From positions 3,086,501 to 3,150,500 of the forward strand of contig NZ_VWNA01000001.1 in the NCBI RefSeq assembly GCF_009600605.1: 64,000 nucleotides of DNA, given 5' to 3'. Numbering within the stretch: position 1 is the stretch's first letter; every line of letters starts with the position of its first letter. Under the pieces are notes generated by a model, which had not been told where the DNA came from, made no database searches, and saw only the letters and a list, made by a program, of their open reading frames with translations. Below, piece after piece: positions 8,100 to 24,128 of this stretch. The position numbers were made by a program, and so were the translations under genes. The DNA comes from Segnochrobactrum spirostomi. GTDB lineage: Bacteria > Pseudomonadota > Alphaproteobacteria > Rhizobiales > Segnochrobactraceae.

Positions 8100-12299
<4,200 letters not shown>

Positions 12300-17357: not shown

Positions 17358-17765
17358 GTGATCCGCTTTGGTATGCCGAGCGCCGTCAGTCTCGTCTTCG
17401 ACGCTATCGACGTCGCGCACTGGCTGGTGGAATTCTATCCCTATATCCGTTCCTATCTCGACGAGCCGAAATCCCTCCAAGAGTTGCGGGCGGATGCAGA
17501 CGCACGCAGAAAGGGGTATGATCTCCACCACATCGTAGAGCAGTCGGCGGCTCGTGCGGCGGGTTTTCCTGAGTCCCTGATCGAGGGACCGGAGAACCTC
17601 GTTTGGGTGCCGAGATTCAGGCATTGGCAAGTCACAGGATGGTTTATGGAGCCGAGTGCGGCCTATGGCGGCCTTTCTCCACGAAAGTATCTCGTAGGGA
17701 AAGATTGGGCCGAAAGACGTAGAGTTGGAATTGATGCTTTTCGAATCAACGGAGTGCTTAAATGA
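17358..17765 (+). CDS. HHIVEQ-type (HNH/LHH-like) nuclease domain, probable toxin C-terminus
   Basis: 135 residues from the GTG at 17358. The frame is open from 17247 with no good start, which supports its being the rear half of the preceding gene. The core GYDLHHIVEQSAA, then GPENLVWVPRFRHW and YGGLSPRKYL, matches a His-His nuclease fold of the HNH/endonuclease VII type found in polymorphic toxins; the paired histidines would be catalytic. The stop overlaps the next start as ATGA (17762-17765), so the putative immunity gene is translationally coupled. Nuclease activity is inferred from the motif only. Confidence 0.65.
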   Translation: MIRFGMPSAVSLVFDAIDVAHWLVEFYPYIRSYLDEPKSLQELRADADARRKGYDLHHIVEQSAARAAGFPESLIEGPENLVWVPRFRHWQVTGWFMEPSAAYGGLSPRKYLVGKDWAERRRVGIDAFRINGVLK

Positions 17766-18133
17766 AGGCTTCGGCACTTTCGGTTTTGAGTGATGATGAG
17801 ATCGTAGATCTATTCATCCAATATTCGATTGAGCAGGAAAACATGAGCCTTGAGATGCGCTCACGGAGCGTCGCGCGGCTCTATCACAAGATCGACGCTC
17901 TCGTCACAGAACTGCGGTTCCGCGAGGGTGACCGCCGCCATGTGCTTCTGCCACTCCTGAAGCACGCTAATCCTCAGGTCCGGCTCAAGGCGGCGCAATC
18001 CTTGCTGGCCGTCGCGCGGGACGAAGCTCTGGCGGCCCTCAAGGAGCTGTCCGATCCCCAGCTCTATATGCAGGCACTGGATGCCGGCATGACGCTTATC
18101 AATCTCGACCGCGGCATCCTTATTCCGGAATAG
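17762..18133 (+). CDS. DUF2019-type putative immunity protein, copy 1
   Basis: 123 residues, mostly helical and HEAT-like. Landmarks are LSDDEIV near the start, LLPLLKHANPQVRLKAA in the middle and QALDAGMTLINL near the end. This pattern fits DUF2019, often found directly after toxin genes of this kind. It overlaps the nuclease stop by ATGA. The role is inferred: it would bind and block the nuclease next door. It is the only copy coupled to the toxin and the one most likely to be its cognate partner. Confidence 0.7.
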   Translation: MKASALSVLSDDEIVDLFIQYSIEQENMSLEMRSRSVARLYHKIDALVTELRFREGDRRHVLLPLLKHANPQVRLKAAQSLLAVARDEALAALKELSDPQLYMQALDAGMTLINLDRGILIPE

Positions 18134-18277
18134 CGGTTGCTCGAAAAAGGGGCGCGGACGAGCCGCACAAGCGTCCCCGGAGCGTGTTCGTAGCTCCTAA
18201 CGGAGATGAAGCGATTCCATCGTACCGCGCGGCGCGATGTGGAGACCGAGGCCCAGCAACGCAACGGGGGTACACAC

Positions 18278-18649
18278 ATGAAGCGCGTGGCGCTCTCCCG
18301 CTTGAGTGACGACGAGATCGTGGGTCGGTTCATCGACTACTCGATCGAGCAGGAAGACATGATCCTTGAGGGGCGCATCGGAAAAGTGAATCGCCTCTAC
18401 GATCGGATCGAAAAACTGATCGAGGAATTGCGCTCCCGCGAGGGCGATCATCGCCATGCGCTTCTGCCTCTTCTGAAGCACGCTAATCCGCAGGTGCGGC
18501 TCAAGGCGGCGTGGGCGACGCTGTCCCTCGCGCCGGACGACGCGCTGGCGGCGCTGAAAGAACTCGCGGACGCTCAACTCTATATTCAGGCGTTGGATGC
18601 GGGCATGACGCTCATCAATCTCGAACGCGGGATCTTCGTTCCGAAATAG
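18278..18649 (+). CDS. DUF2019-type putative immunity protein, copy 2
   Basis: 123 residues from the ATG at 18278, preceded by an ACGGGGG ribosome site. The frame is open upstream to 18206, but that part is unlike the other copies. It aligns without gaps to copies 1 and 3; the LLPLLKHANPQVRLKAA and QALDAGMTLINL blocks are unchanged, while positions about 29-50 differ most. It has its own upstream segment resembling that of copy 3. No toxin gene sits beside it. Confidence 0.68.
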   Translation: MKRVALSRLSDDEIVGRFIDYSIEQEDMILEGRIGKVNRLYDRIEKLIEELRSREGDHRHALLPLLKHANPQVRLKAAWATLSLAPDDALAALKELADAQLYIQALDAGMTLINLERGIFVPK

Positions 18650-18790
18650 GCCGCCGCTTGCAGATAAGGCGGGGCCGTGCGGCCACGCCGCCGCGGAGCC
18701 GGCTCTCTTCCAGATGAGGAATGAAGCGATCTCATCGCCTCCTGCGAGGCAAGGCGGCGATAGAAATCGACGACGTAACGGAGCACTCGA

Positions 18791-19162
18791 ATGAAGAGGC
18801 TGCCGCTCTCCCGCTTGAGTGACGATGAGATCGTCCGACGGTTCGTCGACTACGCGATCGAGCAGGAAAATATGAACCTCGAACTGCGCTGGCGGAGCGT
18901 CGCGCGGCTCTTTCACAAAATCGCGGCGCTCGTTGCGGAGTTGAGGTCCCGCGAGGGGGACCATCGCCATGTCCTTTTGCCGCTTCTCAAGCACGCCAAT
19001 CCTCAGGTCAGGCTCAGGGCCGCCAAGAACCTATTGGCCGTGGCGCCCGACGAAGCCCTGGCGGCGCTGCAGGAGCACGCAGATCCCCAGCTCTATGATC
19101 AGGCCCTTGATGCGGGCATGACGCTTTGGAATCTCGAAACCGGCGTCTTCGTCCCGAAATAG
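18791..19162 (+). CDS. DUF2019-type putative immunity protein, copy 3
   Basis: 123 residues, ungapped against copies 1 and 2 and about 70 percent identical to copy 1 by eye. It shares LSDDEIV, EQENM, LLPLLKHANPQVRL and QALDAGMTL. The upstream segment (18721-18790) begins with a stretch resembling that before copy 2 (GAAGCGAT-CATCG), so the duplicated unit included the leader. As an orphan immunity gene it could protect against toxin variants of neighbours; that is inference. Confidence 0.68.
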   Translation: MKRLPLSRLSDDEIVRRFVDYAIEQENMNLELRWRSVARLFHKIAALVAELRSREGDHRHVLLPLLKHANPQVRLRAAKNLLAVAPDEALAALQEHADPQLYDQALDAGMTLWNLETGVFVPK

Positions 19163-19857
19163 CGGGATGCCGGTGAAGGGCGCCGAGTCCCCGGGAGCGC
19201 CGAGTCGCGGGAAAGCCGAGTCGGCGACCGGGCGGCGCCACCGCCCACCAGCGTCTCGATTCCCGCCACCACCCGAGTCGCACCGCCGAGAATCGAGTCG
19301 TTGCGCTCCCGAGTCCGTCTCCCTGCGACCTCGCACCGGAGAGGGAATCGGGTGCGGGGGAGGGCGGACGGAGACCGGCCGCACCGCGTGCGCCGCGCGG
19401 ACGTTCACTTTGTGTTAGGAACTTGCGCGCTGGGTGCGCGTCACGCCATATTCGCAAAGCGCACGCGTTGCATCATGACGCTTCGTTGTCAGGCATGAAT
19501 TTGGCCGAAGACCGGGCCTTTCCCTATTGACGTCCCCGAAACGACGGACTAGGTTCCGCCCACTTCAACGGCAGGCGGTAAGCCTCGATCGCGCCTCGGA
19601 GCGCTTCCCGAAGTTCGGCCGAAAGGGCGAATGGGACGCACAAAGCTCAGAAGCAATCGGCTTAAACGCTGCCGCGTGCATAGGGTTACATGACGACCAA
19701 ACCATGATCGCGCGGCCTGCGCCACGCGATCCTCTGGATTGTGGGCCCCGTTCACAGCAGAAAGCTGCGGACGGCGGTCCTTCGTTCGTGCGGCCGGTCG
19801 CCTTTGTGCGTCCCCGCGGCAGACGGAACGCTTGAGCTAGAGTTACGGAACTGAAGC
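19163..19857 (+). other. 695-nt gap before rpsL; contains GANTC cluster and possible str promoter
   Basis: No coding sequence or tRNA recognised. The first part carries the GANTC array (separate entry). At 19527-19555 there is TTGACG, a 17-nt spacer and TAGGTT, a possible promoter for rpsL-rpsG-fusA-tuf, which would give a leader of about 300 nt. Since rpoC ends in a terminator 7.5 kb upstream, the str operon needs a promoter in this gap. The exact site is uncertain. Confidence 0.45.
19185..19349. repeat. Cluster of nine GANTC sites with about 17-bp spacing
   Basis: GANTC sites begin at 19185, 19202, 19218, 19258, 19275, 19290, 19295, 19311 and 19345. Six are GAGTC, two GAATC and one GATTC. 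Most gaps are 15-17 nt or about twice that, so the stretch looks like a decayed tandem repeat of about 17 bp. GANTC is the target of the cell-cycle methyltransferase CcrM in alphaproteobacteria. At this base composition about one site per 330 bp is expected. It lies between the third immunity gene and rpsL. Confidence 0.75.
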
Positions 19858-20229
19858 ATGCCGACGATCAACCAGCTGATCCGCCACCCGCGGAAAGCCC
19901 CTGCGAAGCGGAACAAGGTTCCGGCTCTGGAGCAGAACCCGCAGAAGCGCGGCGTCTGCACCCGCGTCTATACGACGACGCCGAAGAAGCCGAACTCGGC
20001 GCTCCGCAAGGTGGCCAAGGTTCGCCTCACCAACGGGTTCGAGGTGATCGGCTACATCCCTGGTGAGGGTCACAACCTCCAGGAGCACTCGGTCGTCATG
20101 ATCCGTGGTGGCCGCGTGAAGGACCTTCCGGGCGTGCGCTATCACGTGCTGCGCGGCGTTCTCGACACCCAGGGCGTCAAGGACCGCAAGCAGCGTCGTT
20201 CGAAGTACGGCGCCAAGCGCCCGAAATAA
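19858..20229 (+). CDS. rpsL: 30S ribosomal protein S12
   Basis: 123 residues, full length. S12 sits at the decoding centre. The streptomycin-related loops are wild type by inspection ([16 protein letters not shown] and [12 protein letters not shown], with both key lysines). First gene of the str operon; rpsG follows after 80 nt. Confidence 0.98.
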
Positions 20230-20309: not shown

Positions 20310-20780
20310 ATGTCTCGTCGTCACAGCGCAGAGAAGCGGGAGATCATGCCGGACCCGAAGTTCGGCGATCTGACCGTGTCGAAGTTCATGAACAGCGTGA
20401 TGCGCGACGGCAAGAAGTCGGCCGCAGAAACGATCGTCTACGGCGCTTTCGACATCGTTCGTGCCAAGACCCGTCAGGAGCCCCTCGAGGTGTTCCACGC
20501 TGCTCTCGAGCGTGTGATGCCCTCGATCGAGGTGCGCTCCCGTCGCGTCGGCGGCGCCACCTATCAGGTGCCGGTCGAGGTTCGCCACGAGCGTCGTCAG
20601 GCCCTGGCGATCCGTTGGCTGATCACCGCGGCCCGTGCCCGCAACGAGAAGACCATGGTGGAGCGTCTGTCGGGCGAGCTGCTCGACGCCTCCAACAACC
20701 GCGGCACCGCCGTGAAGAAGCGTGAAGACACGCACCGGATGGCGGAAGCCAACCGCGCGTTCTCGCACTATCGCTGGTAA
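20310..20780 (+). CDS. rpsG: 30S ribosomal protein S7
   Basis: 156 residues, full length. Primary binder of the 3' major domain of 16S rRNA, near the E site. Signatures [10 protein letters not shown] and [11 protein letters not shown] are present, with the C-terminal basic helix intact ([10 protein letters not shown]). In enteric bacteria S7 represses the str operon; no operator was identified here. fusA starts 30 nt downstream. Confidence 0.98.
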
Positions 20781-20810
20781 TCCCGGTTCGAGCTCAAGAG
20801 GCACCCACTC

Positions 20811-22886
<2,076 letters not shown>

Positions 22887-22937
22887 CCCTCGCCCCCCTC
22901 AGGACCCTGAAACGACAGATTTGACGGAGTACGCCCG

Positions 22938-24128
<1,191 letters not shown>

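Follow-up and report, generated by a model that had tools for sequence, protein, structure and literature searches.

A GANTC cluster upstream of the rpsL promoter recurs across much of the Hyphomicrobiales and might be a methylation-dependent control region of the str operon

Several Caulobacter promoters, including those of ctrA, ftsZ, mipZ and other genes, are controlled by CcrM and GcrA. At GcrA-activated promoters the methylation site lies in the promoter itself. Dense methylation sites are also read in the enterobacteria, where SeqA binds clusters of GATC. Another protein of relevance here, MucR, prefers A+T-rich DNA.

The published work provides additional points of reference. The GcrA proteins of S. 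meliloti and B. abortus prefer fully methylated GANTC and form multiple complexes, according to the available text of PMC3667746, and an extended motif of the GcrA type, YGAKTCK, appears in the accessible part of PMC7987155. Excerpts of PMC5172544 describe how, in C. crescentus and S. meliloti, MucR protects GANTCs against CcrM, and excerpts from two other papers describe GANTC as an infrequent word whose density is about 1.5- to 2-fold higher in intergenic DNA (PMC3973325, PMC8725594). GANTC was sought upstream of cell-cycle genes in PMC2877005, in whose available portion fusA serves as a tree marker. Within the text available from the open-licence PubMed Central literature, no report of a conserved GANTC cluster before rpsL was found, which agrees with an earlier note on this DNA whose author likewise knew of none.

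The locus described here lies in a stretch of 64 kb (C1:3086501-3150500, hereafter the window) from the 5.4 Mb, four-contig genome of Segnochrobactrum spirostomi. Its main features are as follows.

19185-19349, no strand assigned: array of nine GANTC (CcrM) sites, positions by sequence count.
19350-19526, no strand assigned: stretch without GANTC that separates the array from the -35 box, by sequence count.
19527-19555, plus strand: putative rpsL (str operon) promoter, TTGACG-N17-TAGGTT, from a promoter-pattern search in relatives.
19569-19674, plus strand: putative transcribed rpsL leader with a conserved stem, CGGCAGGCGGTAAGCC ... GGCTTAAACGCTGCCG, a separate element.
19858-20229, plus strand: rpsL (ribosomal protein S12), an open reading frame and the first gene of the str operon.
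20310-24128, plus strand: the open reading frames rpsG (20310-20780), fusA (20811-22886) and tuf (22938-24128).

We take the names rpsL, rpsG, fusA and tuf from recognition of the sequences, and the last three genes would be transcribed from the same promoter as rpsL. The array resembles the CcrM- and GcrA-controlled promoters of Caulobacter in that it consists of GANTC sites in a genome with CcrM-type and GcrA domains, and some relatives carry GANTC in the -35/-10 stretch of their rpsL promoters. Unlike the Caulobacter promoters, it has nine sites placed upstream of the promoter rather than inside it, it stands at a translation operon rather than at a division or cell-cycle gene, and it is conserved by density and place, not by sequence. 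With the clusters bound by SeqA it shares dense adenine-methylation sites beside an important gene, but the methylase and motif differ. A further parallel is with promoters shielded by MucR, where GANTC methylation is set by competition with CcrM, but those promoters are MucR targets for which the available text gives no link to rpsL (PMC5172544).

The array occupies non-coding DNA between the third of three DUF2019 genes, which ends at 19162 and has a tenth GANTC within it at 19129, and rpsL at 19858. The nine site starts listed by the earlier note (19185, 19202, 19218, 19258, 19275, 19290, 19295, 19311 and 19345) were all exact on recount and correspond to positions -342 to -182 relative to the first T of the rpsL -35 box. 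About 0.5 sites had been said to be expected, which is right as a single-base expectation; the real rate is lower, about 0.2 per 165 bp, because GANTC occurs at only 1.47/kb in the window (94 in 64 kb) and 1.25/kb in a genome sample (2508 in 2.0 Mb, taken as 100 stretches of 20 kb, or 37% of the genome). Dinucleotide shuffles of the window give 386 occurrences against the 94 observed, and GANTC is therefore avoided there. The genome-wide density check that the note had proposed, when run on this 37%, left the array standing alone: it has 9 sites in 165 bp, and the sample maximum is 6, reached at two places, rather than the many similar clusters that might have made it unremarkable. Among the seven control words examined in the same sample, TC.GA also attains 9 in its densest 165 bp and the other six attain 4-6. 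Thus, nine per 165 bp is within reach of a common word, TC.GA occurring 2277 times in 800 kb as against 1004 for GANTC. In the first 800 kb of the sample, according to gene calls from a crude gene finder made for this analysis, GANTC stands at 1.82/kb in intergenic and 1.14/kb in coding DNA, and none of the 287 intergenic regions of at least 100 bp exceeds four sites per 165 bp.

The cluster ahead of the str operon is real, and such clusters recur before rpsL across much of the order. The comparison used 115 genomes from 43 families, drawn from the 182 of 199 genomes in the order that have an rpsL match (30 and 25 loci from searches, plus 60 chosen for family spread). In consecutive 100-bp bins from -1000 to 0, GANTC per 100 bp runs.22,.24,.18,.37, 1.00,.93,.47,.37,.15 and.13, with its peak at -600 to -500 (1.00) and -500 to -400 (0.93), and seven control palindromes of the same composition are flat over the same bins. 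Anchored instead on the promoter, the region from -320 to -60 holds a mean of 2.31 GANTC in 110 genomes compared with 0.45-1.05 for the control words, and five or more sites are found there in 16 of these genomes, compared with 0-1 for controls. With family averages as the unit, GANTC lies above the control mean in 31 of 43 families (Wilcoxon p 7e-6), and at least one genome reaching four or more sites per 165 bp is present in 12 of the 43. Eight of the 43 families have no GANTC in the block and 12 are not above controls; the trend across the order is strong, not universal. The excess over dinucleotide shuffles of each region is modest, with 292 sites observed and 198 expected (72 of 114 regions above expectation, 10 of 114 at 1% or less). 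Among words of the form XXNXX in the block, GANTC has the highest ratio of observed to expected occurrences (236 observed versus 88 expected from composition and 49 from the density further upstream), and the five most enriched 6-mers all contain it. The only other member of the family with an rpsL match, G001, has six sites in 142 bp at -622 to -485, embedded in different sequence.

The position of the cluster relative to the promoter can be judged in most of these genomes. A promoter of the form TTGAC-N17-TANNNT was found in 110 of the 115; a small number of these anchors are doubtful, among them those of G133, G083 and G009. The five genomes without this anchor (two of family f4 and three of f36) are absent from all promoter-anchored counts. 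The search favoured a 17-bp spacer; when spacing was scored by TATAAT identity alone, 17 was among the best values in 103 of 110. A plain sigma-70 consensus scan did not list the promoter at 19527-19555. Measured from the -35 box, GANTC is densest at -300 to -100 (0.7-1.4 per 100 bp), becomes sparse between -100 and -20 and increases again over the promoter; the scarcity of GANTC in the final 100 bp ahead of the promoter is common to the relatives and the window. The stretch spanning the -35 and -10 boxes contains GANTC in 26 of 110 genomes, versus 4-8 for control words; in the window, no GANTC lies between or next to these two boxes. The end of rpoC was located by a short motif, which did not place it in many genomes; where it was placed and the genome has at least four sites per 165 bp, it varies from -546 to -1266. 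In the window it is at 12299, which puts 6.9 kb between rpoC and the array. The clusters track rpsL, not rpoC.

Two neighbouring subjects deserve separate mention. In a good part of the relatives, no more than about 1.3 kb separates rpoC from the str operon; in the window, an autotransporter gene (Pfam PF03797, 12718-16080) and three tandem DUF2019 genes (Pfam, 17358-19162) stand between rpoC and the array. An open reading frame preceding the DUF2019 genes has no Pfam or NCBIfam match and looks like a small nuclease toxin; the group may be a toxin with repeated immunity genes that was inserted between rpoC and rpsL. Downstream of the promoter, the stem of the rpsL leader has 11 pairs. In an alignment of one genome from each of the 43 families, each of these pairs is standard in 31-42 of the 41-43 sequences compared, and compensatory changes of several types occur (alignment and folding were our own and were made without controls). 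The leader at 19569-19674 matches no Rfam family, and the published Pelagibacter rpsL motif is reported, in the available text, only from that genus and marine metagenomes (PMC2704228). The stem is a candidate for a new ribosomal-protein leader.

Other genes and other lineages help to define the scope of the enrichment. Upstream of rpsB (29 relatives, one of 30 loci having been dropped as incomplete) and rplJ (30 relatives, including two incomplete loci whose anchors may be off), GANTC shows no peak, and two per 165 bp is the maximum. Named-genome rpsL loci were taken as the best 80 among the matches listed and grouped by record title. The 19 Hyphomicrobiales-titled loci among them, which include Hoeflea, Brucella grignonensis, Aminobacter and Neorhizobium but also Parvibaculum and a Rhodobiaceae record, show the same peak, with 1.16 per 100 bp at -500 to -400. 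The 22 Beta/Delta records, one of which is titled Alphaproteobacteria (L185), do not show it, with 0.19 and 0.29 in the two peak bins; they reach 0.50 at -300 to -200, and hence the profile outside the order is not flat everywhere. In Rhodobacterales, 12 of 14 records have a GANTC, usually GACTC, next to the -10 box of the rpsL promoter as judged by eye (L132, L143-L147, L156, L157, L160, L164, L170 and L183). Because the Hyphomicrobiales have an upstream cluster and the Rhodobacterales a site within the promoter, the two lineages may mark the same rpsL promoter in two ways.

Retention of individual sites was examined in 21 species pairs whose blocks align at 60-97% identity. Of 108 directed comparisons, 64% retain the GANTC; for the seven control words the figure is 0-58%, one of them, GT.AC, being well retained too (58% of 24). 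The pairs behind these figures are non-independent, and every conserved site enters the count two times. Within GANTC, the N stays the same (0.81) as often as the fixed letters do (0.76-0.86). This equality departs from pure selection for a methylation site, and the site could therefore belong to something else. One alternative of this type is a transcription factor with GAATC, GATTC or GAGTC in its motif, for which methylation would be irrelevant or a side effect. Such a factor would fit the retention of N as well as the preference for GAGTC over GACTC on the rpsL strand (47 versus 14, the window supplying six of the 47). Against this, all four letters are used at N, the flanks vary so that only the GANTC core is common, and the window favours GAGTC whereas the pooled relatives have mostly GATTC and GAATC. 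We consider a methylation-blind factor unlikely. The extended motif YGAKTCK is matched by 101 of 254 block sites and by 125 of 404 sites elsewhere, a slight excess in the block.

The internal arrangement of the array bears on several other explanations. A spacing of about 17 bp had been described, and some gaps are indeed 15-17 bp, but others are not (17, 16, 40, 17, 15, 5, 16, 34), and no preferred spacing or helical phase was detected in the blocks of relatives (nine periods tried, resultant at most 0.112). The decayed tandem repeat of 16-17 bp that the earlier note had read from this spacing was rejected, as the units are unlike beyond the site itself. The 16 bases flanking each site have a mean identity of 0.31 between sites and 0.30 at random positions of the region, the sole similar pair being sites 1 and 2 (0.62), and Tandem Repeats Finder reports at most 2.6 copies of a 16-bp unit, confined to 19180-19222. 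The suggestion of a dispersed repeat family that carries GANTC by chance fared no better, since there is no convincing second copy of the array sequence in its own genome: the best other match spans 37 bp (E 6.4e-4), at a locus without a GANTC cluster. Searches of 40 relatives at E 0.01 likewise gave only short matches elsewhere, up to 63 bp. As a single strand, the array folds better than shuffled sequences (z -2.7, 1 of 200, DNA parameters), and a structural role may therefore be considered. No DnaA boxes or full CtrA boxes were found in the block, and all Rfam matches at the locus fall below the gathering score.

Dense clusters that tolerate any spacing are what a multivalent reader of hemimethylated DNA would need, and the blocks have no fixed spacing. 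A SeqA-like protein other than GcrA might thus bind the freshly replicated array and either hold the str promoter off or hold the sister copies together until CcrM remethylates the sites. The placement of the block can be argued both ways, as it is set back from the promoter, yet a sequestering site would be expected closer to it. To our knowledge, no such reader of hemimethylated GANTC is known in this class, and this explanation, too, we judge to be improbable.

A neutral origin, in which either a GAGTC-bearing unit was duplicated locally in one genome or the ordinary intergenic enrichment of GANTC produced a functionless cluster, is disfavoured and seems distinctly improbable. It could draw on the general intergenic excess, both in this genome (1.82 versus 1.14 per kb) and as published in the excerpts available (PMC3973325, PMC8725594), and on the resemblance of the first two units. 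However, the blocks average 7-14 sites per kb over the 200-bp peak compared with 1.8 for intergenic DNA of the S. spirostomi genome, and clusters of four or more sites per 165 bp recur in the 12 families noted above. Terminator hairpins were also rejected as a source of the blocks taken as a set, because only 22 of 254 block sites lie in hairpins with three or more extra pairs. Finally, a MucR-like protein that occludes the sites from CcrM and makes the array a local hypomethylated switch has precedent in the shielding already described for C. crescentus and S. meliloti, but it is very improbable here, as the array is G+C-rich, contrary to the known preference of MucR, and the paper on shielding makes no connection with rpsL in its available text.

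The preferred reading is methylation-dependent control, and the machinery it calls for appears to be encoded in the genome. The absence of CcrM, which the earlier note had named as evidence that would count against its proposal, is not what is seen: a RAMA domain (PF18755), as in CcrM, is matched at C1:3317148 (E 1.6e-19), and among 14 control genomes this profile matches in Caulobacter only. GcrA (PF07750) is matched at C1:1656804 (E 7.1e-54), with a second, weaker match, by a profile that among the controls matches in Caulobacter and, oddly, Sulfolobus. A RAMA match is present in 193 of 199 genomes of the order, and the lack of CcrM is therefore hardly usable as a natural control. Of the six genomes without one, the rpsL set includes only G028 and G048, which have two and no GANTC, respectively, within 1 kb.

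A conserved GANTC cluster is tied to the str promoter, and we infer methylation, hemimethylation and reading by GcrA from this arrangement. Because the patch has been kept in the same place while the surrounding sequence changed, the data suggest that the cell may use DNA methylation to control the str operon, and recurrence of the cluster before rpsL is what a regulatory role predicts. In the sequence of events we envisage, CcrM would methylate the sites of the array, and passage of the replication fork would leave it hemimethylated until CcrM acts again. GcrA, which acts with RNA polymerase, would load there to an extent set by how many sites are methylated, so that more polymerase is available locally to the str promoter. 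A large number of sites would give a strong, graded or switch-like response, for which density would matter and exact spacing would not. The synthesis of S12, S7, EF-G and EF-Tu might in this way be tied to replication and to cell-cycle state. The weak point of a GcrA reading is distance: the array is 178-342 bp away from the -35 box, on its upstream side, whereas known GcrA sites are inside the promoter, and hence action at a distance has to be assumed. Overall, the proposal that the array is a multi-site, methylation-dependent control region of the str operon, selected and conserved in position, with GcrA probably as the reader, is one that we are as ready to accept as to doubt.

Similar clusters are also found at other loci. 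One of the two six-site places in the genome sample, with its sites in 63 bp (L365:6162-6224, C1:1276162), directly precedes a gene for a PAS histidine kinase; among NCBIfam models this kinase matches DivJ best, though below the cut-off of the model. Three or more GANTC per 165 bp occur in the 1.5 kb before the matched part in 25 of 30 such kinase loci, this genome included, and 11 of the 30 have a triple of sites with steps of 9-10 and 14-16 bp. With clusters at 25 of 30 loci, recurrence appears to extend to a likely cell-cycle gene, a putative DivJ/PleC-like kinase. The other six-site cluster of the sample (L362, 14674-14819; C1:984674) runs from the start of a 556-aa open reading frame into the gap before a divergent large open reading frame with a weak DUF4114 match.

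If these patterns have a common basis, density-coded epigenetic elements might be general in the Hyphomicrobiales, in the form of clusters of CcrM sites that are kept in place, are free in sequence and spacing, and signal to selected genes that the replication fork has passed. One such gene set would be the str operon and another the DivJ/PleC-like kinase, and the Rhodobacterales would reach the same end through a single site in the rpsL promoter. This generalization is tentative, and we lean against it more than toward it. In the accessible part of the literature, CcrM methylation is linked mainly to division and cell-cycle genes. The proposed link to translation can be tested by site replacement in a laboratory strain. 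If it holds true, investment in ribosomes and elongation factors, the control of which is a long-standing question, would be tied directly to the replication state of the cell.
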